Shown here piece by piece: positions 5,873-29,468 of a stretch of 32,809 nt of DNA. Location: assembly GCA_030428385.1 (NCBI GenBank), contig JAUIDY010000068.1:1-32809 (forward strand), read 5' to 3'. Each line of letters starts with the position of its first letter. Positions within the stretch are counted from its first letter, which is position 1. Source of the stretch: Rhodothermia bacterium. GTDB taxonomy: Bacteria > Bacteroidota > Rhodothermia > Rhodothermales > JAAAOL01. The notes below the pieces were generated by a model. The model worked only from the letters and a program-made list of their open reading frames with translations, was not told where the DNA came from and made no database searches. The translations under genes were made by a program, and so were the position numbers.

Positions 5873-6055
5873 GTCGGGTCGCGGGTCATTCAGGTGGGGG
5901 TTGTTTCCGGGCACGCGACGCGCCACGGCACGTCGCTACGGGTGCCCTTGGCGAAACGTCCGTTCTCCCTATTCTCCCTCTGTCAAAGCCCTTCTCCAAA
6001 CTGTTCGCCACCGAACACCCCTGTACCGCCAGCGGACAACTTCGGACTCCCAGAT

Positions 6056-6080
6056 CCCCCTTTCCCCTTCCCCCTTCCCC
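6056..6080. repeat. Pyrimidine heptad repeat upstream of the array
   Basis: Three consecutive 7-base words of the form CCCCCTT (the second is TCCCCTT) followed by CCCC lie 66 bases before the first permease. They share the 7-base period of the spacers further right but have no inverted partner. The rest of 5873-6145 holds nothing else recognisable except the inverted repeat at the start codon. Confidence 0.6.
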
Positions 6081-6113
6081 TAAACACCACTCCGGCACTG
6101 GTTTTGTCCTAGC

Positions 6114-6149: not shown

Positions 6150-8584
6150 TAAAAAACTACCTGCTCATCACCTTCCGGTCGCTGCGTAAGCACCCGGCCT
6201 ACACCGTCATCAACGTCTTCGGTCTTGCAATTGGGCTGGCGTGTTGCCTGATGATTCTGCTGTACATGCAGGACGAACTGACCGCCGACGATTTTCACCA
6301 CGACGCCAACCGAACCTACCGCCTTGTGGAGACCCATGCTTCGCCTACCGAAGGCGAGGTGCGGTTTGCCGCTACGGCGGGGCCTGTTGGGCCTGCTTTA
6401 AAAGAAGCCTTCCCCGAAGTCGAAGAGACCGTGCGCGTGCTGAACCTGTTTCGCCCCTCCATCCGGCGTGGCAACCAGGGCTTTTACGAAGCCGAATACC
6501 TGATCACCGAGCCGAGTTTCTTTGATGTGTTCGACTTCGAAGTGGTGCAGGGCGACCCCGTGGCGGCGCTCACCAACCCCGGCTTTGTGATCCTGACCGA
6601 GTCGGCGGTGCAGAAATATTTTGGCCAAGAAGACCCGATGGGGCAGACCCTCACCGTGTCCGCGATGGGTGAGATGGAGGTTGCCGCCATCATGAAGGAC
6701 CCGCCACGCAACTCCCATCTGGTGTTCAACATGCTCTTCTCCAACGCCACCCTGAACGAGGCGTTTGGCGAAAACTGGGACACCTACGTGGCCAACTGGC
6801 ACCCCAACAGCCGCTCGTTTTCGACCTACCTGAAACTACAAGCAGGCGTGTCGGGAGAAACGCTGGAAGCCAAACTCCCGGCCTTCTTCGCGCCGCATCA
6901 AGATGCCGAAAACCCGGAGCCCCAGCACGCCGCCTTGCAACCGCTCGCCGAGGTGTACCTGGATTCTGCCGACATCAACACCGACTTCTTCGTGCGCGGG
7001 GGTGAACGGGCGTACCTCTACATTTTCTCCGCGATTGCGTTGTTTATCATCCTCATCGCCTGCATCAACTACATGAACCTCGCCACGGCGCGGTCGATGC
7101 GAAGAGCGAAGGAGGTAGGGCTGCGCAAGACCATCGGAGCACACCGCACGCAGTTGATCCGTCAGTTCCTGAGCGAAGCGGTAGTAACCGCACTGGTGGC
7201 GATGGTGCTGGCCCTCGGGTTGGTGCAGGTGGCCCTGCCGATGTTTAACAGCCTCGCCAACAAAGCCCTGTCACTCAACCTACTGGAAAACGGACCGATG
7301 GTGCTGGCGCTGGTGGGGCTGGTGCTGGTGGTGGGTGTGGCGGCGGGCAGCTACCCCGCGTTTTTCCTGGCGCGGTTCCGTCCGGCGCAGGTGCTCAAAG
7401 GAACCGTGCAGACCAGCCACCAAGCGTCTCTGCTGCGGCGTGGTCTGGTGGTGGCGCAGTTTACGCTGTCTATCAGCATGATCATCGGCACCCTCATTGC
7501 TGCCGACCAACTGGACTACGTGCGCACCAAACATCTCGGATTTAACGAGGCTCAAAAGCTGGTTTTTGACATCAACAGCGGCGCGGTGCGCAATAATGCC
7601 GAGGCCATCAAAGCGTCGTTCCTGCAACACACGGCGGTGCAGGACGTGAGCATCACCTCGCGGGTGCCGGGCGACTGGAAGCAGATCACCGACATCGACG
7701 TGGTGCCGAAGGGAACGACCGACTTCCTCAACGCCACCTTCATCGCCACCGACGCCGATTTCCTCGATACGTTCGAGATCACGCTGGCGGACGGGCGAGG
7801 CTTTGAGGAAGGCCGCGCCGCCGACAGCGCCGCTGTGCTCCTCAACGTAGCCGCCGCGCAGGCGCTAGGATGGGAAGATCCCGTGGGTCAACGTATTCAG
7901 GTGCCCCAAGATGCCACCGGCGGTGCCCCGTTCGACGTGCTGTTCGAGGCGACGGTAATCGGCGTGGTTGATGATTTCCACTTCCGCTCGCTGCACGAGC
8001 CCATTCGTCCGCTGGTGCTGGGCTGGATCAACAACCCGATCCGGGGCTCCGACTACATCACCGCCTCGGTCACCAGCACCGATCTGCCCGCGACGATTGC
8101 CACGCTGAGCCAGATCGTCCACGACGTTGACCCTGAAAGTCCGGTCGAATATAATTTCCTCGACCAGCGCATGCAGGAGTTTTATACACAGGACGAACAC
8201 GTGGGGCGCATCTTCAACAGCGCCGCCGGGCTCGCCATTCTGGTCGCGTGCCTCGGCCTGTTCGGCCTTGCCGCCTTCACTGCCGAGCGGCGTACCAAAG
8301 AGATTGGTGTGCGCAAAGTAATGGGGGCGTCCGTCGGCGGCATCATCACGCTGCTCTCCAAGGAATTCCTCAAGTTGGTGGCGGTATCCTTCGTGCTGGC
8401 GACGCCGCTGGCCTATTTCGCCATGCAGCGTTGGCTGAACGATTTCGCCTATCGCACCGACCTGCACCTGTCCACCTTCCTGCTCGCGGGCCTGCTCGCC
8501 GTTGGCATTGCCCTGCTTTCGGTCAGCTACCAGTCCATCAAAGCTGCCCTCGCCGACCCGGTGAAAAGCCTTAGGTATGAATAG
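6146..8584 (+). CDS. Duplicated FtsX/MacB-type permease, array gene 1
   Basis: The product is 812 residues. The layout is two fused MacB-like halves: TM1 at about 18-41, periplasmic MacB-type domain to about 245, FtsX domain with three membrane segments (about 288-309, 344-365, 385-408), TM5 at about 433-452, a second periplasmic domain to about 650, and a second FtsX domain (about 688-805). The cytoplasmic coupling segments are intact: RRAKEVGLRKTIGA near 319 and ERRTKEIGVRKVMGA near 714. In MacB/LolCDE/FtsX systems these contact an ATPase, but none is encoded here. The double fusion without an ATPase resembles the acidobacterial orphan permeases (ADOP), whose function is unknown. As first gene of the array, its start may be masked by a hairpin. 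No Shine-Dalgarno is visible. Confidence 0.95.
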   Translation: MLKNYLLITFRSLRKHPAYTVINVFGLAIGLACCLMILLYMQDELTADDFHHDANRTYRLVETHASPTEGEVRFAATAGPVGPALKEAFPEVEETVRVLNLFRPSIRRGNQGFYEAEYLITEPSFFDVFDFEVVQGDPVAALTNPGFVILTESAVQKYFGQEDPMGQTLTVSAMGEMEVAAIMKDPPRNSHLVFNMLFSNATLNEAFGENWDTYVANWHPNSRSFSTYLKLQAGVSGETLEAKLPAFFAPHQDAENPEPQHAALQPLAEVYLDSADINTDFFVRGGERAYLYIFSAIALFIILIACINYMNLATARSMRRAKEVGLRKTIGAHRTQLIRQFLSEAVVTALVAMVLALGLVQVALPMFNSLANKALSLNLLENGPMVLALVGLVLVVGVAAGSYPAFFLARFRPAQVLKGTVQTSHQASLLRRGLVVAQFTLSISMIIGTLIAADQLDYVRTKHLGFNEAQKLVFDINSGAVRNNAEAIKASFLQHTAVQDVSITSRVPGDWKQITDIDVVPKGTTDFLNATFIATDADFLDTFEITLADGRGFEEGRAADSAAVLLNVAAAQALGWEDPVGQRIQVPQDATGGAPFDVLFEATVIGVVDDFHFRSLHEPIRPLVLGWINNPIRGSDYITASVTSTDLPATIATLSQIVHDVDPESPVEYNFLDQRMQEFYTQDEHVGRIFNSAAGLAILVACLGLFGLAAFTAERRTKEIGVRKVMGASVGGIITLLSKEFLKLVAVSFVLATPLAYFAMQRWLNDFAYRTDLHLSTFLLAGLLAVGIALLSVSYQSIKAALADPVKSLRYE

Positions 8585-8669
8585 GGCTATCGGCTGTCGG
8601 CTATCAGCTTTCGGCTCTCAAGAGCAAGGCTGATAGCCAACAGCCGACAGCTGACAGCCCCAAAAACCC
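8585..8669. repeat. Heptad-repeat hairpin spacer, GGCTATC family, copy 1
   Basis: The 85 bases run exactly from the stop of gene 1 to the start of gene 2. The left arm is five 7-base words (RGCTNTC type, for example GGCTATC and GGCTGTC). A central small hairpin follows (GCTC 8614-8617, loop TCAA, GAGC 8622-8625). The right arm is four words of the reverse-complement type (GCTGATA, GCCAACA and similar). The tail is GCCCCAAAAACCC directly before ATG. The arms pair over about 24 bases with three mismatches. Confidence 0.9.
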
Positions 8670-11105: not shown

Positions 11106-11189
11106 GGCTATCGGCTTTCAGCTATCAGCCCTCGGCTCTTTGGAGCAACGCTGATAGCCGAGGGCCGACAGCCGACAGCCTCAAAACCT
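11106..11189. repeat. Heptad-repeat hairpin spacer, GGCTATC family, copy 2
   Basis: The 84 bases run from stop to start. There are five left words, a core hairpin (GCTC 11135-11138, loop TTTG, GAGC 11143-11146), four right words and the tail GCCTCAAAACCT. The left word AGCCCTC is matched by GCCGAGG/GCCGACA on the right, so both arms differ from copy 1 while keeping much of the pairing. It shares this subtype with copy 5. Confidence 0.9.
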
Positions 11190-13601: not shown

Positions 13602-13686
13602 CGGCTATCGGCTGTCAGCTATCAGCTTTCGGCTCTCCAGAGCAAGGCTGATAGCCAACAGCCGATAGCTGACAGCCCCAAAACCC
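13602..13686. repeat. Heptad-repeat hairpin spacer, GGCTATC family, copy 3
   Basis: The 85 bases run from stop to start. It differs from copy 1 by only three substitutions, one extra leading C and one fewer A in the tail. The core hairpin is GCTC 13632-13635, loop TCCA, GAGC 13640-13643. The tail is GCCCCAAAACCC directly before ATG. Confidence 0.9.
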
Positions 13687-16098: not shown

Positions 16099-16183
16099 AG
16101 CTATCGGCTTTCAGCTATCAGCTTTCGGCCCTTACAGGCGAAACTGACAGCCAACAGCCGATAGCCGACAGCCCCAAATCCCC
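16099..16183. repeat. Heptad-repeat hairpin spacer, GGCTATC family, copy 4
   Basis: The 85 bases run from stop to start. The core is GCCC 16128-16131, loop TTAC, AGGC 16136-16139. Relative to the other copies one T-A pair has become C-G (a compensated change) while the closing pair is lost. The right-arm words are ACTGACA-, GCCAACA-, GCCGATA- and GCCGACA-like. The tail is GCCCCAAATCCCC before ATG. Confidence 0.88.
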
Positions 16184-18556: not shown

Positions 18557-18689
18557 CACGCTATTCGCTTGAAACGTGAAACGTAAAACGTGAGGGTGCC
18601 GAGCACCATCGCTTGGAAAGCAGTTCACGTTTTACGTTTCACGCATCAGGCTACCAAGCTCCACGCTCAAAACGCACCGCCCAAGGTCC
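18557..18689. repeat. Heptad-repeat hairpin spacer, GAAACGT family
   Basis: In the 133-base gap, CGTGAAACGTAAAACGTGA at 18575-18593 is perfectly inverted at 18625-18643 (19 bases each). The left arm, from 18571, is made of 7-base words (GAAACGT twice, then AAAACGT). A small inner hairpin GGTGC (18595-18599), loop CGA, GCACC (18603-18607) sits between the arms. The design, heptad arms around a small hairpin, is that of the GGCTATC spacers, but the sequence is unrelated. About 46 further bases without structure precede the next ATG. Confidence 0.9.
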
Positions 18690-21077
18690 ATGCTCAAAAA
18701 CTACATCAACACGGCGCTCCGCCACATGCGCAAGCACCGTCTCAACACATTCATCAACCTGCTGGGGTTGGCGACGGGGCTGGCGTGCTGCCTCGTGGTC
18801 TGGCTGTTTGTGCAGCAAGAGCGTTCGTTCGACCGCTTCCACGAAAATCTCGACGAGATTTACTGGGTGGATGGGCACCTTGGCGACCGGCAGATGTCGT
18901 CCACGCCGATCTTGATGCTTCCCGCGCTGGTAGACGAAGTACCGGAGGTGGAACATGGCACGCGCTTGTTTACCACCTCGCTCGTCACCGCCCGCGACCA
19001 GATGGTACAGAGCGCCCGGGCGGCGTTCGTCGATCCGGCCTTTTTTGACATGTTCTCGTTTCCGCTGATGGCGGGCACGGCAGATATGGAAGCACTGCAA
19101 AGCGTCGTCCTGACCGCCGAGCAGGCTGCGCTGTTCTTCCCCAACGCCGACCCCGTCGGTCAGTCACTGACGCTTTTTCTGAACGACACGCCGTACGACT
19201 TCACAGTTACGGGCATTGCCGCCTCCCTACCCGCCACCAGCAGCCTGCAATTCGACCTCGTGCTGCCCTACCAGAGCACGGCGCTGCTGGAAAACGCTTC
19301 GCTGGAGCCCACCTGGGACGATTTTATGATCACCAGCTTTGTGCAGTTGGCCCCGCACGCCACGCCCGAAGCCCTCGATGCCACCTTTTCTGCCCTGATC
19401 GGCACCCACATGCGGCCCTCACTGGAAGACGCGGGCCATGAGGTGTCCGAGGTCAGCTTTTCGCTGTCGGCGCTGCGGACGTACCGCTTCAGCGAGCGCT
19501 CGGTGAGTGGCTTGCAGGCAGGCACCGATCCGTCGTATCTCTACCTGCTGTCCGTCATCGCCGGGCTCATTCTGCTGATCGCGTGTTTCAACTTCACCAG
19601 CCTCGCCATTGGGCAGGCCAGCAGCCGCCTGCAAGAGATCGGGATGCGCAAGACGCTGGGGGCACACCGGGGCCAACTCATCCGGCAGTTCTGCGTCGAG
19701 GCACTGGCCTTCAGCACCCTCGCGCTGGGTGCGGGCTTGCTGCTGGCCCAGTTGCTGGTGCCCGTGTTTAACAACGTGGCGGGCACGACTCTTTCGCTGG
19801 AGCAAGTGCCGTTTGGCTCCCTGCTGTTGGTGAGCGCCGCGCTCCTCCTCACAACGGGACTGCTGGCGGGCAGCTACCCCGCGCTGGTACTGGCCCGCGT
19901 GCCCAACATCCAGGCGCTTTCCGGACGGCTCTCGATGACGCGCAACCCATGGATGACACGCGGGCTCGTGGTGGCCCAGTTTGGCATTTCCATCGGGCTA
20001 CTGGCGGCGACGGTGATCATGTACCAGCAGCAGACATTTATCCAGGACTACGACCTCGGCTACGACACCGAGCAGGTGGTGGTCATTCCCACGCAGGTGG
20101 CCGGTATCCGCGACGCTCGCGGCGATGAGACGCTGGCGCATTTCCGGCAGGTGCTGGGCAGTCAGTCTGGCGTGCGACACCTCAGCGGTTCCTCGGGTTC
20201 GTTCGCGCGCGGCGGCTTCGGCACCCGCGCCGAGTTGGAAGACGGCACCACGCACATGATCGCGCACTACCGCGTCGATCCCGACTACCTCGAAACGCTC
20301 GGCATCACGCTGGCGCAGGGACGCAACTTCTCGCCCGATAGGGCGCAGGATGCCACGGGCTCGGTCATCGTGAACGAGACATTCGCCCGCACCTTCGACA
20401 CGCCTGTGGGCACCGTCCTCACCGAGCATTACGGTCAGCTTAGCAACTTGCAAATCATCGGCATCACGGACGACTATCACTTCTTCGACCTGCGCCAGTC
20501 GATCATCCCCGCTGCGTTGCACATGAACGACATGTTCAGCACGCGCTTTATGCTGGTCAAGATTGCCCCCGACCGCATGCCCGAAACACTCGCCGCCCTC
20601 GAAACGGCGTGGCAGGAAATCCGCCCGAATGTGCCGTTCGATTACCATTTTCTCGACGACGACCTCGACCGCCAATACCGCAGCGAGACGCTGTGGCGAC
20701 GCGCCATCAACTACGCCTCGGCGATTGCGGTGCTGCTGGCCGCCCTCGGGCTGTTCGGGCTGACCACACTTTCGACGACGCGACGCACCAAAGAAATCGG
20801 CATCCGCAAGATCTTGGGTGCGTCGGTGCCGGGGCTGTTTTACCTGATCGTCCGCGAGTTCGTGCTGCTAATTCTCGTCGCCGCCGTTCTCGTCACGCCC
20901 ATCGTCTACTTCTTCATGGACGAATGGCTCAGCAACTTTGCGTACCATGTGACCCTCACGCCGCTGCCGTTTGTGGTGGCGGGTGTGCTGGCCTTCGCCG
21001 TAGCACTTTTCACCACCAGCTCCCAATCGTTCCGCATCGCCCAGACCAACCCGGTCGAAAGCCTACGATACGAATGA
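18690..21077 (+). CDS. Duplicated FtsX/MacB-type permease, array gene 6 (divergent)
   Basis: The product is 795 residues, with the same layout but the least typical of the eight. TM1 is GLATGLACCLVVWLFV, near 26-41. The first coupling segment is changed to SRLQEIGMRKTLGA near 310, lacking the usual ARS-xRAKE lead. The second, TRRTKEIGIRKILGA near 697, follows GLFGLTTLST instead of GLFGLAAFTA. The periplasmic region has PAFFDMFSFPLMAG and an otherwise poorly conserved first half. The C-terminus is NPVESLRYE. Both flanking spacers belong to families different from those around the other genes, so this gene may have joined the array separately. The start follows from the family N-terminus MLKNY. 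Confidence 0.93.
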   Translation: MLKNYINTALRHMRKHRLNTFINLLGLATGLACCLVVWLFVQQERSFDRFHENLDEIYWVDGHLGDRQMSSTPILMLPALVDEVPEVEHGTRLFTTSLVTARDQMVQSARAAFVDPAFFDMFSFPLMAGTADMEALQSVVLTAEQAALFFPNADPVGQSLTLFLNDTPYDFTVTGIAASLPATSSLQFDLVLPYQSTALLENASLEPTWDDFMITSFVQLAPHATPEALDATFSALIGTHMRPSLEDAGHEVSEVSFSLSALRTYRFSERSVSGLQAGTDPSYLYLLSVIAGLILLIACFNFTSLAIGQASSRLQEIGMRKTLGAHRGQLIRQFCVEALAFSTLALGAGLLLAQLLVPVFNNVAGTTLSLEQVPFGSLLLVSAALLLTTGLLAGSYPALVLARVPNIQALSGRLSMTRNPWMTRGLVVAQFGISIGLLAATVIMYQQQTFIQDYDLGYDTEQVVVIPTQVAGIRDARGDETLAHFRQVLGSQSGVRHLSGSSGSFARGGFGTRAELEDGTTHMIAHYRVDPDYLETLGITLAQGRNFSPDRAQDATGSVIVNETFARTFDTPVGTVLTEHYGQLSNLQIIGITDDYHFFDLRQSIIPAALHMNDMFSTRFMLVKIAPDRMPETLAALETAWQEIRPNVPFDYHFLDDDLDRQYRSETLWRRAINYASAIAVLLAALGLFGLTTLSTTRRTKEIGIRKILGASVPGLFYLIVREFVLLILVAAVLVTPIVYFFMDEWLSNFAYHVTLTPLPFVVAGVLAFAVALFTTSSQSFRIAQTNPVESLRYE

Positions 21078-21114
21078 GTAATTACTCATTGTTAATCACT
21101 AATCGCTAATCGGA
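21074..21114. repeat. Half heptad spacer with palindrome over a stop codon
   Basis: ATGAGTAATTACTCAT at 21074-21089 is a perfect 16-base palindrome that includes the TGA stop of gene 6. It is followed by 7-base words (TTGTTAA, TCACTAA, TCGCTAA). The palindrome would be the centre of a symmetrical element whose left arm is absent, so this looks like the right half of a third spacer type. The gap is only 37 bases. Confidence 0.7.
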
Positions 21115-23535
21115 ATGTTAAAAAACTACATCAAAACCGCGTTTCGGACGCTCTGGAAGGACAAGGTGCACACCGCGATTAACGCGGGTGGGCTGGCCGT
21201 GGGGCTGGCATGCTGCCTGCTGATCCTGCTTTTTATCCAGCACGAGTGGAGCTTCGATCGCTTTCATGCGAAGACGGACCAGATCTACCGCGCGTGGGTG
21301 CTGGAAGACTATGGCGAAGACGAGCAGTTCTTCAACAGCGTGACACCCGTTATTCTCGGCCCAACGATGGAAGCCACCTTCCCGGAAGTCGAAGCCATCG
21401 TGCGCGTGGACTTCTTCGGCACGCAGGTACGGCGCGGCAACGAGACCTTCGATGAAACGGTGTCGTTTGCCGACCCCACGTTTTTTGACGTGTTCGACTT
21501 CGCCCTTGAACGCGGCGAGCGCGCTGCGCAACTCGCCGACCCAAACGGGATCGTCATTACGCCCGCCATTGTGGCGCGTTATTTTGGTAGCGAAGACCCA
21601 ATAGGGCAAACGCTGTCGGTCCGCGTGAATGATGCGTTCGAAGATCTGGTGGTGACCGGCATCGCTGCGCCAACGCCTGCCAACTCCAGCATCCAGTTCG
21701 ACCTGCTGGTGTCGATGGAATTTGCCGAGCAGATCTACAGCGAAGGCACGAAGCGCAGTTGGACGAACGTCTCGCCCGAAACGTATGTGCTACTGCGCGA
21801 CGACGTAACCGGCCCCGCACTCGAAGCCAAGCTGCCGACGATGATCCAGCAGGTGTTCGGCAATCGTTATGTGGAAGGCGAATTCAGCGTGGGCCTTCAG
21901 CCCATCACCGACATTCACCTCAATCCCGACATTCCAGCGGGTGCCATCGCTCCGAGCGATCCGGCGTATTCGTACATCCTTGGCGCGGTGGCGCTGTTTA
22001 TTCTGCTTATCGCCTGCATCAATTTCATGACGCTCTCCATCGGCCGTTCGATGGACCGGGCGCTGGAGGTGGGCGTGCGCAAAGCCATCGGCGCGGGGCG
22101 GCGGCAACTGATGGTGCAGTTCTGGGGCGAAGCCGTGCTGATGACCGTACTGGCGCTCGGACTCGGCATCGCGCTGGCGCTTACGTTTTTGCCGCTGTTT
22201 AATGCGCTTTCCGGTCGCGAGTTGGTCTTTGCGCTTGATGCCGGGATGATGGTTTCGATTGTCGTGCTGGCACTGCTCATCAGTTTCGTCGCCGGGAGTT
22301 ATCCCGCCGCCGTGCTGTCGGGCTTCCGCCCGGTGGAGGTGCTCAAAGGCAAGATCCGGGTGCGCGGCGACCGCAGCCTCGTGCGTCAGGGGCTCGTGGT
22401 GGTGCAGTTTGCGCTGTCGATTTTCCTCATCGCCAGCACCATCATCATGCAGCAACAACTGACGTTCCTCCAAGACAAAAACCTGGGGTTCGATAAAGAG
22501 CAGGTGGTGATTATTCCCACGGGTCTGCCCACCGCAGAAGGCTACGACCTCGCCGAGCGCTTTCGCAATGAAGTCGCCGACTACGACGCCGTGGTCAGCC
22601 TGTCGGCGTCGGCCTTTACGCTGAACGATGGCTGGGCGGAAGTGGGCTACACCGACGACCAAGACCGGTACCGCGAGTTTAACATTAACCGGGTGGACCA
22701 CAACTACCTCGCGACGATGGGGATGGAATTGGTCGCAGGCCGCGACTTCTCGCGCACCATCACCTCCGACGAACGGCAGGCGGTGATCGTCAACGAGGCG
22801 TTTGTGCAGGAATATGGCTGGGACAATGCCATCGGGCAGCGGCTGCCGGGCGCCAACTTCGAGGACCACGCCGTGGTGGGTGTCGTACGCGACTTCCACT
22901 ACCAGTCGCTCCGCGAGGCCGTGGCCCCGGCGATGCTTGTGCTCACCACCGACGCCATCTTCCAGGGTATCGAAAATGCAGGGTTCCGTTCGTCGCCCCG
23001 CCCCGACCTTTCCGTCCGCCTCAAGCCCGGCGACCTCCCCGGCACGCTGGCGCTACTCGAAGCGACCTGGGCACGGACCGCGCCGGACCGCTCGTTCGAC
23101 TTCTATTTCCTCGACGACGCCGTGAACACGCAGTACCAGGCCGAGATGCAGTTGGGCCGCATCGTCCGCATCGCCTCCCTGCTGGCGATCCTGATCGCGT
23201 GCCTCGGGTTATTCGGACTGGCGGCGCTGGCAGCGGCGCGGCGCACCAAAGAGATCGGCGTGCGCAAGGTGCTAGGCGCCTCGGTGGGCGGCATCGTCGG
23301 CCTGCTCTCCCGCGACTTCGTGCGCCTCGTGGTCATCGGCTTTGTGCTGGCCGTGCCGCTCACGTATTTTGCCATGACCCGCTGGCTCGCCGACTTTGCC
23401 TACCACATCGAGCCCGGCGTGGGCGTGTTTGTCTTGGCGGGCCTCCTCGCCCTCGCCATCGCCCTCGTCACCGTCAGCTACCAGTCGATCAAAGCCGCCC
23501 TGAGAGACCCCGTGAAAAGCCTACGTTATGAATAA
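21115..23535 (+). CDS. Duplicated FtsX/MacB-type permease, array gene 7
   Basis: The product is 806 residues. TM1 is GLAVGLACCLLILLFI, near 26-41. The coupling segments are DRALEVGVRKAIGA near 311 (ALEV in place of AKEV) and ARRTKEIGVRKVLGA near 707. The first FtsX domain has INFMTLSIGRS in place of INYMNLATARS, recalling gene 6 (FNFTSLAIGQA), its upstream neighbour. Periplasmic motifs are PTFFDVFDFALERG and VVRDFHYQSLREAVAPA. Its 3' end shares 61 identical bases with array gene 2, and its downstream spacer is of gene 2's subtype. The ATG at 21115 is preceded by TAATCGGA, with no Shine-Dalgarno. Confidence 0.95.
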   Translation: MLKNYIKTAFRTLWKDKVHTAINAGGLAVGLACCLLILLFIQHEWSFDRFHAKTDQIYRAWVLEDYGEDEQFFNSVTPVILGPTMEATFPEVEAIVRVDFFGTQVRRGNETFDETVSFADPTFFDVFDFALERGERAAQLADPNGIVITPAIVARYFGSEDPIGQTLSVRVNDAFEDLVVTGIAAPTPANSSIQFDLLVSMEFAEQIYSEGTKRSWTNVSPETYVLLRDDVTGPALEAKLPTMIQQVFGNRYVEGEFSVGLQPITDIHLNPDIPAGAIAPSDPAYSYILGAVALFILLIACINFMTLSIGRSMDRALEVGVRKAIGAGRRQLMVQFWGEAVLMTVLALGLGIALALTFLPLFNALSGRELVFALDAGMMVSIVVLALLISFVAGSYPAAVLSGFRPVEVLKGKIRVRGDRSLVRQGLVVVQFALSIFLIASTIIMQQQLTFLQDKNLGFDKEQVVIIPTGLPTAEGYDLAERFRNEVADYDAVVSLSASAFTLNDGWAEVGYTDDQDRYREFNINRVDHNYLATMGMELVAGRDFSRTITSDERQAVIVNEAFVQEYGWDNAIGQRLPGANFEDHAVVGVVRDFHYQSLREAVAPAMLVLTTDAIFQGIENAGFRSSPRPDLSVRLKPGDLPGTLALLEATWARTAPDRSFDFYFLDDAVNTQYQAEMQLGRIVRIASLLAILIACLGLFGLAALAAARRTKEIGVRKVLGASVGGIVGLLSRDFVRLVVIGFVLAVPLTYFAMTRWLADFAYHIEPGVGVFVLAGLLALAIALVTVSYQSIKAALRDPVKSLRYE

Positions 23536-23618
23536 GGCTATCGGCTGTCAGCTATCAGCCCTCGGCTCTTTGGAGCAATGCTGATAGCTGATGGCCGACA
23601 GCCAACAGCCCCAAAGCC
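23536..23618. repeat. Heptad-repeat hairpin spacer, GGCTATC family, copy 5
   Basis: The 83 bases run from stop to start. There are five left words, a core hairpin (GCTC 23565-23568, loop TTTG, GAGC 23573-23576), four right words and the tail GCCCCAAAGCC before ATG. It is the same subtype as copy 2 (AGCCCTC word and TTTG loop), 12 kb away. Confidence 0.9.
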
Positions 23619-26021
23619 ATGCTCCATCTTCGTCCAGCCCTGCGCAGCCTGCGCAAGCACCAAGGCATCACCTTTATCAACGTCGTTGGCCTCGCAGTGG
23701 GGCTGGCCTGCTGCCTGCTCATTGCGCGGTATGTGCTGCACGAGCGCAGCTACGACCGTTTTCACGCACACGGCGAACGGGTTTACCGCCTCTCGCCGGA
23801 CGTGACGATGCCGAGCGGCACGCAGTCGTGGACGGCCACGCAAGGCCCCCTCGCGCCTGCTCTCATGGAGGTGTTTCCCGAAGTGGAAACCGCCGTGCGT
23901 CTCTACAACGGCGAGGCCGTAATCCAGCATGACGCCGTGCGCCATGTGGAAGAAAACCTGCAGTATGCCGACGCCGCGTTTCTGGACGTATTCAGCTTTC
24001 CGCTGCTGCAAGGCGATGCCGCCACCGCCCTGCAAGCCCCCTCGTCCATCGTGTTGACCGCATCGATGGCGCGCAAATACTTCGGCACCGAAAGTGTGCT
24101 GGGCGAGACGCTGGTGCTCGATGGCACGCGCACCCACACCATCACGGGCGTCCTCGCCGACTTGCCCTCCAACACCCGCTTCGACTTCGATGTCCTGCTC
24201 CCCATCGAAACCCTCAAAGAGACGGGGCCGGAATGGCTGTTTGAAAGCTGGGGCGACTTTTTCTTTACGACCTATGTGCAGTTGGCGGAAGGCCAACGCC
24301 CGCAGGACTTTATCGCCAAGCTAGACCGCTTCATCGACGAAAACGTGCCGTTCCTCCGCGAAGGCATGTCGCCGTCGTACGTCCTCGAAGCCGTGCCCGA
24401 CCTGTACCTGTACTCCGACCGGGGGGCCGACAGCGGGGCGCAGCGGCGGGCGTCGTTGTATCTGTTCGCCATTGTGGCGCTGTTTATCCTCGGCATTGCG
24501 TGTATCAACTTTATGAACCTCGCCACCGCCCGCAGCGCCGAACGAGCCACCGAAGTGGGCGTGCGCAAAACCGTGGGGGCGGGGCGCGGGAGTCTGGTGG
24601 CGCAGTTCCTCACCGAGTCGATGCTGGTGGCCATCCTTGCTGGCGTCCTTGCGGTCGGGCTTGCCTCGCTGGCGTACCCGGCGTTTGTGGCGCTGACCGG
24701 CAAAGCGATGCCGACCAGCATTTTCGCTGAGCCATTGCTTCTGGGGTTGCTGGCGGCGGCGGTGTTGGTGGTGGGACTGGCGGCGGGGAGTTATCCGGCG
24801 TTGGTGCTTTCAGGTTTTCGCCCGGCTGCGGTGCTCAAAGGCGCGTTCCGGCATTCGGCGCAGGGCGTGTGGCTGCGCAAAGGGCTGGTGGTGCTTCAGT
24901 TTGGCATCTCCGTCGTGCTCATCGTTGGCACGGGTGTCGTCTACAGCCAGCTCAGCTATCTGAACAACCAGGACCTCGGCTTTGACAAAGAACAATTGCT
25001 GGTGCTGGAGTTCGACGCCGCGCAACTGACGGGCGCGGAAGCAGACGCCGAGCCGCCCATCGAGACGATCAAGGAAAGCCTGGCGCAGCAGACATCCGTG
25101 GAAGGCGTGAGCGCGTCGCGGGCTGTGCCCGGCACCCGCACCGTCAGCGCCCTGACGACGTTGCAAACCGCCGACCGCTCCGACTGGCAAAACACGCTCA
25201 CCACCTACCTCGTCGACGACGACTTCCTGGCGACCTACGAACTCGACCTCGCCGCCGGGCGCTTCTTCACGCCGCAGTTCGCCTCTGACGCCGAAGAAGC
25301 CATCATTATCAACGAGACGATGGCTCGCACGCTGGGCTTCACCCAGCCGCAGGATGCCCTCGGCACGACGTTTCAGCAATGGGGCAACGAGGGTACCGTG
25401 GTGGGCGTGGTGCAGGACTTCAACTTCGCCTCGCTGCACGCGCCGATCCTGCCGATGTCGATGCGGCTGGCCTCGGCGGCCCAGACACAATACCTGACGC
25501 TGCGCGTGGCGACGAACGACCTGCCCAACACGCTTTCCGACATTCGGGCGTCGTGGGAGACCCTCGTCCCGCAGTACCCGTTCACCTACCGCTTCCTCGA
25601 CGAGTCATTCGACGAAGCCTACCGCGCCGAGCAGCAGTTTGGGCGGTTGTTTGGAACGTTCGCCGCGCTCGCCATCCTCATCGCCTGCCTCGGACTGTTT
25701 GGGCTAGCGGCGTATGCGATCCAGCAGCGCATCAAGGAGATCGGCGTGCGCAAGGTGCTGGGTGCGTCGGTGCCCAGCCTCATCGGGCTGCTGTCGAAGG
25801 ACTTTTTGCAGCTCATCGGCGTCGCGTTTGTCATCGCCGCGCCGCTGGCGTATTTCGGGGCGCAGCGCTGGCTGGACGGCTTTGCGTATCACACTGACCC
25901 CAGCCTCGTGCTGTTTGCGCTGTCGGGCGTGCTCGTCGCCGCGATTGCGCTCGTCACCGTCAGCTACGAAGCCCTGCGCGTCGCGTCCATCAACCCGACG
26001 GAGTGTTTGCGGAGTGAGTAG
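23619..26021 (+). CDS. Duplicated FtsX/MacB-type permease, array gene 8
   Basis: The product is 800 residues. It begins MLHLRPALRSLRKH rather than with the MLKNY of genes 1-7, though TM1 (GLAVGLACCLLIARYV) is canonical. The coupling segments are ERATEVGVRKTVGA near 305 and QQRIKEIGVRKVLGA near 701. Periplasmic motifs are AAFLDVFSFPLLQGDAATAL and VVQDFNFASLHAPILPM. The C-terminus has drifted to NPTECLRSE, ending the run of SLRYE endings. This is the last contiguous gene; beyond its stop the spacer is of a fourth word family and the next gene is unrelated, so it probably ends the array transcript or its conserved part. Confidence 0.95.
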   Translation: MLHLRPALRSLRKHQGITFINVVGLAVGLACCLLIARYVLHERSYDRFHAHGERVYRLSPDVTMPSGTQSWTATQGPLAPALMEVFPEVETAVRLYNGEAVIQHDAVRHVEENLQYADAAFLDVFSFPLLQGDAATALQAPSSIVLTASMARKYFGTESVLGETLVLDGTRTHTITGVLADLPSNTRFDFDVLLPIETLKETGPEWLFESWGDFFFTTYVQLAEGQRPQDFIAKLDRFIDENVPFLREGMSPSYVLEAVPDLYLYSDRGADSGAQRRASLYLFAIVALFILGIACINFMNLATARSAERATEVGVRKTVGAGRGSLVAQFLTESMLVAILAGVLAVGLASLAYPAFVALTGKAMPTSIFAEPLLLGLLAAAVLVVGLAAGSYPALVLSGFRPAAVLKGAFRHSAQGVWLRKGLVVLQFGISVVLIVGTGVVYSQLSYLNNQDLGFDKEQLLVLEFDAAQLTGAEADAEPPIETIKESLAQQTSVEGVSASRAVPGTRTVSALTTLQTADRSDWQNTLTTYLVDDDFLATYELDLAAGRFFTPQFASDAEEAIIINETMARTLGFTQPQDALGTTFQQWGNEGTVVGVVQDFNFASLHAPILPMSMRLASAAQTQYLTLRVATNDLPNTLSDIRASWETLVPQYPFTYRFLDESFDEAYRAEQQFGRLFGTFAALAILIACLGLFGLAAYAIQQRIKEIGVRKVLGASVPSLIGLLSKDFLQLIGVAFVIAAPLAYFGAQRWLDGFAYHTDPSLVLFALSGVLVAAIALVTVSYEALRVASINPTECLRSE

Positions 26022-26070
26022 GGGGTTGGGGTGCGGGGAGTAGGGAATGGGGTATGGCAAATGGGGAGGT
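26022..26070. repeat. G-rich heptad repeat after the last array gene
   Basis: Seven consecutive 7-base words begin right after the stop codon: GGGGTTG, GGGTGCG, GGGAGTA, GGGAATG, GGGTATG, GCAAATG and GGGAGGT. The consensus is about GGGNRTG. There is no inverted arm, unlike the spacers inside the array. Bases 26071-26129 hold nothing recognisable. Confidence 0.7.
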
Positions 26071-26129
26071 TTGGCTGCGGTTAAAGTGGTATCATAGCCT
26101 CATCCCAACAGCCTTCCTGTGCCTACGCC

Positions 26130-26975
26130 GTGCGACATCGGCTTTTCTTCCTTGGCATGGGCCCGAGCAATACCTCTCAGGCGCAGATACGCTACGGTGA
26201 GACTTTTTTCTTGCCAACATATGGAGAAGATCCGTCCGGGTACCCGTTGAGCGGAGCCCTAACTCTCCTTTTAAATGGGCAACTCAGTATCGATGATGTA
26301 TGGAACACCTTACTTCAAGCTGCGAACTCCCAGGATAGCACGCTGGCTCCCCTTCTTAAGGATATTGCCTACGCATACCAGGATAACCTTCCCGAGGCTA
26401 CTCATTTGGCCCTGTATGCACTCTGGCGGCTCGGTGAACCCACGAGCTATTTTGTAGATCTGGCGCAAAACTACCAAGGCAACATTTTTCTGGCAGAGCG
26501 TGCTATCATGGTAATCGCTGCCCGCCCCCATTCCAGTACTCTTTCTGTCATTCAGCCCTTAAGACAAGCCAGCGGAAATGGTTTCATACAGGGAGCAGTG
26601 AACTTTTATGAGGCCGTCCTGCATTTAGAAACCTCCTATGAGACGTACACGCCTGAAGAGCAAAGCTGGTTGTTAATGAACTTGGTGAAACGACCGTTTT
26701 GGCTTCCCTCCTCCAACTGCAATCATTGTTATGGAGGTATTCTTAAAGGAGATACTGAAGGTGAGCTAAAAGCACATATAATCTGGGCGCACGAGAAGTT
26801 GCTAGCATTTGTTGCTGCATACCCCCACTTGATTCAGCAGCGCATTCATGAAATAGGCGAAGCAAGAACGGAGGAATTGCCTGCCTCTCAGCAGGCCGAG
26901 TGGCGTGCCTATCTTGAAGCCTACCTGACCGAAGTGGCTTTTCCCAACGGGGTGCCTCCTTCCACCGAACACTAG
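26130..26975 (+). CDS. Hypothetical protein, AT-richer than neighbours
   Basis: I do not recognise this 281-residue product. It is mostly predicted-helical in character (for example LPEATHLALYALWRLGE, LLAFVAAYPHLIQQRIHEIG) with a single Cys cluster NCNHCYGG near residue 196, which could bind a metal or form a disulfide. The first in-frame start is a GTG at 26130; an ATG ten codons in (26157) is the alternative. No clear signal peptide and no Shine-Dalgarno are visible. Upstream the frame stays open to a stop at 26082 without a better start, so an N-terminal loss is possible. Base composition is clearly lower in GC than that of the permeases and kinase, suggesting separate acquisition. Confidence 0.6.
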   Translation: MRHRLFFLGMGPSNTSQAQIRYGETFFLPTYGEDPSGYPLSGALTLLLNGQLSIDDVWNTLLQAANSQDSTLAPLLKDIAYAYQDNLPEATHLALYALWRLGEPTSYFVDLAQNYQGNIFLAERAIMVIAARPHSSTLSVIQPLRQASGNGFIQGAVNFYEAVLHLETSYETYTPEEQSWLLMNLVKRPFWLPSSNCNHCYGGILKGDTEGELKAHIIWAHEKLLAFVAAYPHLIQQRIHEIGEARTEELPASQQAEWRAYLEAYLTEVAFPNGVPPSTEH

Positions 26976-27080
26976 CGGGACGCTATCACTTGGCGACGTG
27001 GGTGCGGAGCGCATCAAAACCGATTGTGCAACCCCAACATCAACCTCTCCGATTCCTTCTTCACCTGCGTTCAGCAGGAA

Positions 27081-27112
27081 TCTGTCTCTCCTATGTCTTT
27101 AGGAGAGACAGA
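27081..27112. terminator. Perfect 13-base hairpin between convergent genes
   Basis: TCTGTCTCTCCTA at 27081-27093 is perfectly inverted at 27100-27112 around the loop TGTCTT. It lies about 105 bases after the stop of the hypothetical gene and 88 bases after the stop of the sensor kinase on the other strand. Position favours a two-way terminator, but neither side has a T run. The rest of 26976-27199 holds nothing recognisable. Confidence 0.4.
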
Positions 27113-27199
27113 CAACAAAGCGAGGGAGGCGAAGCCGGATCGAGCGTGTTGTCAGAGAGGAAAGTAAGGGAGAATGCTCAGCCCTTTTGAAGAAGCGCG

Positions 27200-28600
27200 C
27201 TACACATCCACCTTTGGAAACCGCATCGTAAACACACTGCCCTGCCCCGGCCCGTCGCTGTGGGCGGTGACGGTGCCGCCGTACGTCTGCACGATGGTCT
27301 GCACAATCGCCAGCCCGAGGCCACTGCCTGCCTGCGCCTGCACCTCCGGCGTGTCGGGGCGGTAGAAACGGTTGAACAGATGCGGGGCGGTGTCTGCGTC
27401 GAAGCCAATGCCGGTGTCGCGCACTTCTAGCACGGCTTCGTCGGGTGTCTTGCGCACAAAAATCGTGACCGATCCGCCCGGTGGCGTGTATTTGACCGCA
27501 TTGTCGAGCAGGTTGTCGAGCGCCGTGCCCAGATGATCAGCGTAGGCAATGAGGGTTACATCGGCTTCGGTGGACAGCGTGAGGTGGAGGTTGTGCTTTT
27601 CAGCGCGGCGCTGCCACATCTGTGCGCGTTCCTCGCACAATGCGCCCAGGTTGACGGGTTCGGCGGCGGGTGCAGCTTCGGTGTCGAGGCGGGCGATCAG
27701 GAGCAGTTGCTCGACCATCGTGCCGAGGCGGGTGGCGTCTTCGCGGATGGCAGCAAGGGCTTGCTGATACGCTGCGGGCGTGCGTTCCTGCCGCAGCCCC
27801 ACCTCAGCCTCATTGCGGATGGCGGCGAGCGGATTCAGCAGTTCGTGTGCCGCATTGGCGGTGAAGCGGCGCTCGCGGTTAAACGCGGTCTCCAGCCGTT
27901 CGAGCATCGTGTTAAACGTTGCCGCGAGGTCTGTTAGTTCGTCGCGCAGCCGGTCCGGCATCGGCAGGCGTATGCTGAGGTCGGAGGCGGTGAGGGCATC
28001 GGCGGCCTGGGTGAGCCGTGCCACCGGACGCAGCGCCCGCCGCGCCAGCACATAGCCGCCGCCCAGCGCCACAAGCACGGTCAGCAAAATCGATAGCAAC
28101 AGCGACGCGCCCGGCACATGCTGGTGGATATCCCACGCGAAAGCGCTCGCCTCTAGCCAGCCCACCAGCGTCTCGCCATCCATCAGGGGCACATACATCG
28201 ACCGCACCGCCGCGCCTTGCCAGTGATGTTCGATCTCGGTGAGGGCTTCTTGCTCCGGCACAACGGGTGTCAGCGGCGCGGCGCCTGCAAAGTTGGGGGT
28301 CTGGTCCCAGATGCTTCCTGTGGGCGAGAGCACGCGCACGTACATCCCAAAATTCCCGGCCTGCCGAAACGCCTCACTCCGGGCTGACAACGGAGGCGAA
28401 AGCTGTGGAACGCCGTCCACGAATTGCACGTGTGGGACAAGTTCGCTCTGGGCCTGAAACAACCGCTGGTGTAATAGCAAATGCTGGCTCCAGTGAAAGC
28501 TCGTCACCATGAGCACCAGAAACAGCCCCAACAAAAACACCATGCTGAGACCGTACCACAGCGTCAGCCGCACGGAAATAGGCAGGCGGAGGCGAGTCAT
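27200..28600 (-). CDS. Membrane sensor histidine kinase (CusS-like layout)
   Basis: The product is 466 residues. TM1 is about 12-34, a periplasmic sensor region about 36-162, TM2 about 164-186, and HAMP about 187-240. The dimerisation/phosphoacceptor segment has His252 in AAHELLNPLAAIRNEAEV. ATPase motifs are N box NLLDNAVKYTP (363-373), G1 DTGIGF (395-400), F box FNRFYRP (409-415) and G2 GSGLGLAIV (425-433). The H box differs from the usual HELRTPL. The chosen ATG at 28600 overlaps the regulator's stop (ATGA), with GAGG upstream on the minus strand, so the pair is coupled. In this family the kinase phosphorylates the partner regulator after an envelope signal. The sensor region resembles no specific domain I can name. 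Confidence 0.93.
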   Translation of the reverse strand: MTRLRLPISVRLTLWYGLSMVFLLGLFLVLMVTSFHWSQHLLLHQRLFQAQSELVPHVQFVDGVPQLSPPLSARSEAFRQAGNFGMYVRVLSPTGSIWDQTPNFAGAAPLTPVVPEQEALTEIEHHWQGAAVRSMYVPLMDGETLVGWLEASAFAWDIHQHVPGASLLLSILLTVLVALGGGYVLARRALRPVARLTQAADALTASDLSIRLPMPDRLRDELTDLAATFNTMLERLETAFNRERRFTANAAHELLNPLAAIRNEAEVGLRQERTPAAYQQALAAIREDATRLGTMVEQLLLIARLDTEAAPAAEPVNLGALCEERAQMWQRRAEKHNLHLTLSTEADVTLIAYADHLGTALDNLLDNAVKYTPPGGSVTIFVRKTPDEAVLEVRDTGIGFDADTAPHLFNRFYRPDTPEVQAQAGSGLGLAIVQTIVQTYGGTVTAHSDGPGQGSVFTMRFPKVDV

Positions 28601-29307
28601 GGCCGCGCCTCGGGTTCGGTCGTCAGCCGGTATCCCACGCCCCACAGCGTCTGGATTGCGATGGCATCCTCTTCCAACCCAACTTGCGTAAGCCCGTGGG
28701 CGAGTTTTTGGCGCAGCCCCGAGATGGTTACGTCGATGACGTTGTCACGCACGTTAAAGGCATCGCCCCACGCCCGCTCGGCGAGGCGTGTCCGCGAAAC
28801 CGCCTGCCCCGGCTGCCGCATCAACACCTCCAGCACGGCGTATTCCTTGGGCCGCAGCCAGCAGCGGTGCCCCTGGATGGTCACTTCGCGTCGCCCTGCA
28901 TCCAGGCACAACGGCCCGACCTGCACCCACGGATCAGTTGCCATGGGCCGCACCCGACGGGTACACGCCCGCAGCCTCGCCAGCAGTTCCTCGAAGGCAA
29001 ACGGCTTGGTGAGGTAATCGTCGGCCCCGGCATCCAGTCCTTGCACCCGGTGCTCAATGTCGCCCAGGGCGGTCAGCATCAGCACAGGCATGTCGCGGCC
29101 TGCGGCGCGGAGTTCGGTCACCACCGTACGTCCATCTTTGCGTGGCAACCGCCAGTCCACCACCAGCACGTCGTAGTCGTTCGCCAGCGCCTGCGCGTAG
29201 CCCTCCGCTCCCTCGTGCGCCACGTCCACGGTGTAGCCCTCCTCCTCCAACCCGCGCCGGAGCGAGTCGGCCAACCGCCGTTCGTCTTCGATCAACAACA
29301 ACCACAT
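28597..29307 (-). CDS. OmpR/PhoB-family response regulator
   Basis: The product is 236 residues. The receiver domain (1-118) has the acidic pair Glu7-Asp8, phosphoacceptor Asp51 (VLVVDWRLP), Thr79 and Lys101 (LTKPF). The DNA-binding winged helix (about 125-230) has the typical RPKEYAVLEVLMRQPGQAVSR and GVGYRL motifs. The gene is first in the pair; its stop overlaps the kinase start. There is no Shine-Dalgarno; instead its leader is a run of heptad repeats. It is divergent from the secreted protein/permease pair at 29469, whose expression it may control, an inference from position. Confidence 0.95.
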   Translation of the reverse strand: MWLLLIEDERRLADSLRRGLEEEGYTVDVAHEGAEGYAQALANDYDVLVVDWRLPRKDGRTVVTELRAAGRDMPVLMLTALGDIEHRVQGLDAGADDYLTKPFAFEELLARLRACTRRVRPMATDPWVQVGPLCLDAGRREVTIQGHRCWLRPKEYAVLEVLMRQPGQAVSRTRLAERAWGDAFNVRDNVIDVTISGLRQKLAHGLTQVGLEEDAIAIQTLWGVGYRLTTEPEARP

Positions 29308-29313
29308 GGGTTT

Positions 29314-29348
29314 GGGATGAGAGATGAGAGATGAGAGATGAGAGAAAA
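29314..29348. repeat. GAGATGA heptad repeat in the regulator leader
   Basis: Five 7-base words lie in tandem: GGGATGA, GAGATGA three times, then GAGAAAA. They begin seven bases upstream of the response regulator's start codon and occupy the place of its ribosome-binding site; on the minus strand they read as a pyrimidine-rich CTCTCAT tract. The three exact copies could vary in number by slippage. The rest of 29308-29468 has no recognisable feature. Confidence 0.8.
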
Positions 29349-29468
29349 GTACGGGCGGCGGGGGCGTTCGGCAAAAGTCTTAACGCTTTTTAAGGATTGG
29401 TTCAGGAGGGTTTCAGGGGATGTGGGCGAGCTTGGGTTCATCGTGAACCTTTCTCTTCTACTGAACCC

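Follow-up and report, generated by a model that had tools for sequence, protein, structure and literature searches.

Intergenic repeats built from units of seven nucleotides are known from several bacterial groups, among them the short tandemly repeated repetitive (STRR) sequences of cyanobacteria and the words GGGAATC in Xanthomonas, GGGGAYT in Nostoc, TAACTGA in Beggiatoaceae, cyanobacteria and Bacteroidetes, and GGGACCG in Geobacter (PMC4692102, PMC4679880, PMC2700814). In an earlier survey, as summarized elsewhere (PMC4679880), heptanucleotides outnumbered all other classes of long simple repeats in most of the genomes covered, and a 7-nt polymerase contact was proposed. Heptads can also be paired: the GGGAATC repeats form 70-75 inverted pairs per Xanthomonas genome (PMC4692102), and in P6b of the Nostoc tRNA-Leu(UAA) intron degenerate heptads of varying copy number pair into a hairpin (PMC3488679). 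In plasmid pSM19035, the small protein omega (ParB) reads arrays of the heptad WATCACW in direct and inverted order (PMC9499535). Here we describe heptad elements in a stretch of 32,809 nt (the window; contig JAUIDY010000068.1, here C42) from a Rhodothermia bacterium of the order Rhodothermales (GCA_030428385.1, here G000; other genomes are labeled G001 and so on, and loci L060 and so on). Most of the window is occupied by a same-strand array of MacB/FtsX permease genes of ~800 amino acids, and the heptads sit mainly in the short gaps separating them. Two families recur: F1, a hairpin element with arms of GTRAAAC heptads and a GGTGC/GCACC inner hairpin, and F2, a hairpin element of RGCTNTC heptads.

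These elements resemble the heptameric intergenic repeats of other bacteria in their 7-bp tandem units, their mostly intergenic position, and the many copies of one dominant word per genome, and inverted pairs are seen in Xanthomonas as well. They differ in that short-loop inverted arms are common over many words, in that each unit comprises about five fixed and two free positions, and in that orthologous gaps of a single genus have had one word exchanged for another. As in the Nostoc intron, heptads on two sides form a hairpin, although there a single intron site is involved and here a dispersed intergenic family. With the omega operators they share contiguous 7-bp units, a 5-bp core, and both direct and inverted order, but this likeness is one of architecture only, as the omega arrays serve a single small protein as plasmid centromere and promoter sites. 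Heptad repeats, inverted pairs among them, have already been described in Xanthomonas and Nostoc (PMC4692102, PMC3488679), and the suggestion of an earlier note on this DNA that inverted heptad arms lack a precedent was mistaken. Within the literature searched, what appears new is that the elements are distributed over the order in unrelated words, that they combine a 5+2 unit with arms that do not match, and that words are replaced at orthologous gaps. We propose, with a probability of about one half, that the elements are small intergenic non-coding dispersed repeats of 7-bp units, often two head-to-head arrays with a short loop between them, which spread by copying together with unit-wise slippage and recognition of a 5-mer in trans.

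Heptad words, units and arms across the order

The F1 core accompanied by CGTGANN heptads was found in 19 of the 114 genomes of the order and in 10 of its 49 genera, and the reversed pattern in none. Other genomes of the order bear inverted heptad arms in other words, namely GCTGANN, GGTTYGN (G021) and TNCGTNN (the genus of G013, alongside CGTGANN), and ACGTTGA-like words occur in G011. A given word can be concentrated in one genome: overlapping matches to GCTGANN numbered 733 in G007, 41 in G006 and 28 in G433, with none in G000. CGTGANN and TNCGTNN could be linked via TGCGTGA. Cyanobacterial loci picked up by chance have inverted arms with yet other words. Such arms thus occur in several unrelated words, in cyanobacteria as well as throughout the order. 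"Reversed" control patterns also gave several matches in G187, G425 and G010, which are apparently real arrays of other words (ARTGCAA-like and AGTCGNN-like). At positions 1457-1615 of L288 (G001), ACGCATC/ACGAAAC heptads form a higher-order repeat whose spacer is CCAGCAGCGCATCC.

Inverted arms were associated mainly with lag 7. When G000 was pooled with a panel of loci, which had been selected by a CGTGA-type pattern and included two (L109 and L121) with F1 elements, an inverted partner within 110 nt accompanied 66 of 151 lag-7 tracts, 9 of 103 lag-6 tracts and 8 of 75 lag-8 tracts, and only 1 of the 151 lag-7 tracts when the flanks were shuffled. Without G000, the corresponding counts were 31/75, 5/70 and 6/45, most of this remaining signal being supplied by two cyanobacterial loci. 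A degenerate 17-base pattern run on the whole genome collection gave mostly chance matches, as expected of such a pattern, and served as a mixed panel.

Scoring of departures against each array's own consensus resolved the unit into two parts. In the CGTGANN arrays outside G000, departures fell on 107 of 1251 bases at positions 1-5 and on 144 of 475 at positions 6-7, and the GCTGANN arrays of G007, together with locus L121, behaved in the same way. A global test for departures in adjacent phases was marginal (P 0.014), the version by word family being the informative one. The free bases of units paired between the arms were equal in 8 of 42 pairs, compared with 7.2 after shuffling (19 different hairpins, both strands of each being included). 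Because the 5-mer is kept in both arms and the free bases do not match, neither arm is a copy of the other.

Orthologous gaps were compared among 13 genomes of the G013 genus. In the gap 3' of one gene, the word is TNCGTNN in G013, G023, G033 and G437 and CGTGANN in G441 and G440, with no recognizable array in G434. The neighboring gap is of the TNCGTNN type in G013 and of the CGTGANN type in G023 despite 95% identity of the adjoining query DNA, and in another gap these two genomes have a word in common but a difference of about two units in the right arm. A second locus has a heptad hairpin directly 3' of the same gene in 9 of 11 species, with CGTGANN in seven and TNCGTNN in two (G435 and G340). 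In a divergent gap of this locus, a direct array gives a length of 54 nt in both G023 and G437, and G441, at 68 nt, is two units (14 nt) longer. This comparison, which the earlier note had recommended, thus found words replaced, arrays absent and unit numbers altered within a genus; the differences imply wholesale replacement of the word in both arms and changes of length in units of seven. Word replacement may represent new insertion or conversion.

Heptad elements of the window and its genome

F1 in the window spans positions 18566-18655 (+ strand) and takes up most of the gap separating two MacB-type permease genes. Its 19-bp arms at 18575-18593 and 18625-18643 (+ strand) are perfect, with 0 mismatches between them, and the inner hairpin GGTGC-CGA-GCACC lies at 18595-18607 (+ strand; stems 18595-18599 and 18603-18607), in agreement with the earlier description of this gap; the whole element folds at z = -8.05. 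F2 elements occupy five gaps, all on the + strand, at 8585-8662 (starting immediately 3' of a stop codon), 11106-11183, 13602-13681, 16099-16177 and 23536-23613. The remaining words form only direct arrays in the window. These are AATCRCT at 21092-21113 (+ strand), without an inverted arm; degenerate G-rich, GGGNRTG-like heptads at 26022-26064 (+ strand), also without an inverted arm and the weakest case; 4.3 copies of GAGATGA at 29313-29349 (+ strand), in a gap separating divergent genes; and the pyrimidine heptads CCCCCTT at 6055-6081 (+ strand). The palindrome reported beside gap 21078 was recovered as a perfect 16-bp sequence, ATGAGTAATTACTCAT, at 21074-21089 (no strand assigned); it extends across the preceding gene's stop codon and adjoins the heptads. 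Words of the AATCRCT type also occur as an inverted pair at positions 7837-7904 of L094, and the word of this gap can therefore have arms elsewhere.

Lag 7 was the best of lags 4-11 in all ten heptad-bearing gaps tested, including every gap for which period 7 had been claimed. Against 400-1000 dinucleotide shuffles, the lag-7 score was reached by none for gaps 6056, 8585, 11106, 16099, 18557 and 29308, and P was 0.001 for gaps 21078 and 23536 and 0.003 for gap 13602. Gap 26022 was the marginal case, with P 0.01 at lag 7 rising to 0.06 when any lag from 4 to 11 counts. Period 7 is thus common to all five gaps cited as sharing one heptad design, but inverted arms were found in only one of them, that at 18557. 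The five F2 hairpin gaps had been left out of that description, and the word at 18557 belongs to a dispersed family. An Rfam search of the window gave 0 matches at gathering score to known structured RNA families. Downstream of the permease array and in the opposite direction, positions 27200-29307 contain histidine kinase and response regulator genes.

G000 consists of 245 contigs with a total of 6.19 Mb. The sample taken for a census comprised 1.16 Mb of contigs, 72 kb of which reads N, with 194 kb intergenic and 893 kb coding, and was non-random, being picked partly around contigs with F1 or F2 matches. Near-perfect tracts, with 14 of 15 matches at a given lag, numbered 18 in intergenic DNA and 0 in coding DNA at lag 7, and 0-1 at each of lags 4-6 and 8-11. 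Among 24 long intergenic inverted repeats of G000, 12 had arms of lag 7, and none had arms of any other period from 3 to 12. Most of the lag-7 signal is accounted for by the two dispersed hairpin families: F1, with arms and a ~30-bp core in common at roughly 40 loci, and F2, which is likewise dispersed through the genome. With F1 and F2 words masked, 12 lag-7 tracts remained compared with 6 at lag 6 and 5 at lag 8, and at a laxer threshold 26 compared with 32 and 29, so that the other window words show a weak excess only. The predicted period-7 excess is therefore strong, lag-specific and confined to intergenic DNA in the sample, but is mostly due to two families and weak once these are masked. 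Because F1 and F2 dominate the signal, a generator independent of sequence is not proved by the window alone, and because the words of the 18557 gap and of F2 each belong to a genome-wide family, the window gaps are not independent draws.

Further copies in G000 indicate how these families vary. F1 has a long form of ~145 bp (L213-L216; L060 7163-7309; L065 15155-15302), in which a variable loop of ~55 nt extra lies inside the GGTGC/GCACC hairpin and the arms are unchanged. Near position 470 of L216, an F1 element starts right after a lookalike of a tRNA-gene 3' end (GGTTCGATTCCCGCCAGGTGCTCC). A larger repeat enclosing F1 (TAGCGTTGGTC...GGGTACTGC) was dropped as a candidate, being present at a handful of places only. 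A pattern of three or more GTRAAAC words, which was too strict, matched only G000 among 394 genomes of the phylum. The F1 arms in G000 showed no excess of compensatory changes (3 pairs, compared with 3.1 shuffled), as expected of decaying copies of one element. A second MacB-permease array, on contig C47 (L081, 333-12854), has F2, F1 and AATCRCT-type heptads in its gaps, one of which (7805-7845) has just one F2 arm left. In both arrays, F2 begins no more than 1-2 bases past the stop codon. The F2 copies of the C42 array are 84-96% identical, and the tree of the flanking permeases is mostly unresolved through divergence. Since divergence is far greater among the flanking proteins than among the F2 elements, the elements are either younger than the gene duplications or homogenized.

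Explanations for the heptad elements

Under the proposed spread by copying, new sites would be seeded when an existing element is copied in trans, and arrays could grow or shrink in 7-bp steps through slippage or unequal exchange. The 5-mer would be kept because a protein reads the repeats on both strands, this protein being either the element-copying machinery or a regulator. Copying and 5-mer reading in trans would make the dominant word characteristic of a whole genome and able to change from lineage to lineage. The 5+2 units, and the lack of a match between the free bases of the two arms, argue for such recognition and spread, and against both pure slippage and fold-back copying. In replication slippage, as proposed in an earlier survey (summarized in PMC4679880), the polymerase would slip by about 7 nt, and any word could arise and survive in gaps where frameshifts are harmless. 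This could explain why period 7 is intergenic-only and lag-specific, why orthologous gaps of 54 and 68 nt differ by 14 nt, and why words are many across genomes. However, it is quite unlikely as an account of these elements, as departures are concentrated at two of seven positions, the copies of F1 have a non-repeated core in common, inverted arms are not produced by slippage alone, and a single word dominates a genome, whereas local slippage is not expected to share a word at many unrelated sites. Fold-back copying by template switching, in which the arms are made from each other and the heptads are a by-product, is compatible with arms that are complementary in the 5-mer and change word together; the chance-level match of their free bases makes it almost certainly wrong, and effectively refutes it for CGTGANN.

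The same 5+2 pattern, the mixture of direct and inverted order and the unmatched free bases could instead reflect arrays of binding sites for a chromosomal heptad-binding protein, an analogue of omega/parS or an RNA-binding counterpart; each such site would be functional, and the arrays would seldom move. The omega heptad WATCACW also has a 5-bp core with degenerate ends in direct or inverted order (PMC9499535), and one gap keeps its array in most species of the G013 genus. We regard this explanation as possible but doubtful, given that presence varies among species, that the same gap can hold either of two words, and that promoter bias is lacking: heptad tracts of G000 lie in 21 tandem, 6 divergent and 1 convergent gaps, against a background of 362, 106 and 48. 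These counts likewise give no support for a terminator role and fit tolerated passengers. That several elements fold strongly and begin 0-20 nt past a stop codon would suit transcription terminators or hairpins at mRNA 3' ends, but such a role is very improbable, since convergent gaps are not enriched, the F1 arms lack compensatory change, direct arrays without hairpins occur too, and no T-run was seen by eye after the hairpins of the window F2 gaps and of the orthologous gaps in the G013 genus.

Several observations weigh against spread by copying with 5-mer recognition in trans. The 5+2 pattern, clear in CGTGANN and GCTGANN, is weaker or different in T-N-CGT-NN and GGTTYGN. The hairpin kept at one gap in 9 of 11 species fits a maintained site function better than random insertion. 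Moreover, the analysis revealed neither a transposase nor, in the orthologous gaps compared, a target-site duplication or a clean empty site. Like repetitive extragenic palindromic (REP) sequences and the REPINs formed from them (PMC3116915), the elements are short extragenic hairpins of inverted pairs with many copies in one genome, but their arms are period-7 arrays. The F1 model and core were also absent from all seven loci with a Y1_Tnp gene of the REP-associated tyrosine transposase (RAYT) type in G000 and four relatives, the G000 gene being cut by a contig end. Spread by a RAYT/REPIN system was accordingly rejected, given the lack of F1 elements near the Y1 transposase genes. At L102 (G000, contig C203, near 1450-1500), a GGGGCAACC...GGTTGCCCC hairpin, with AAAACGTGGGTGCC/ACGTTTT around it, adjoins the only Y1 transposase fragment, and is likely a true REP that is only loosely F1-like.

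Implications of a replaceable heptad word

The broader idea of the earlier note, a common generating process independent of any fixed sequence, fits the many words found across the order but fails locally, where one word dominates a genome and five of seven positions are conserved within arrays. The dominance of one word (GCTGANN) and the conserved positions imply that sequence matters in trans. A bolder proposal, which we consider rather unlikely, is that Rhodothermales-like bacteria have a trans-acting system that recognizes, in either orientation, a 5-mer recurring every 7 bp and that seeds such arrays in gaps or maintains them. Under this proposal, the word could be reset, both throughout a genome and at orthologous sites, with the 7-bp architecture left unchanged.

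Period 7 in bacterial intergenic DNA is a documented oddity of long standing. The 5+2 unit, the unmatched arm bases and the replacement of words yield testable predictions by which slippage, fold-back copying, spread of mobile elements and recognition by a protein can be told apart, and the 13 species genomes of one genus provide a tractable lineage for such tests.

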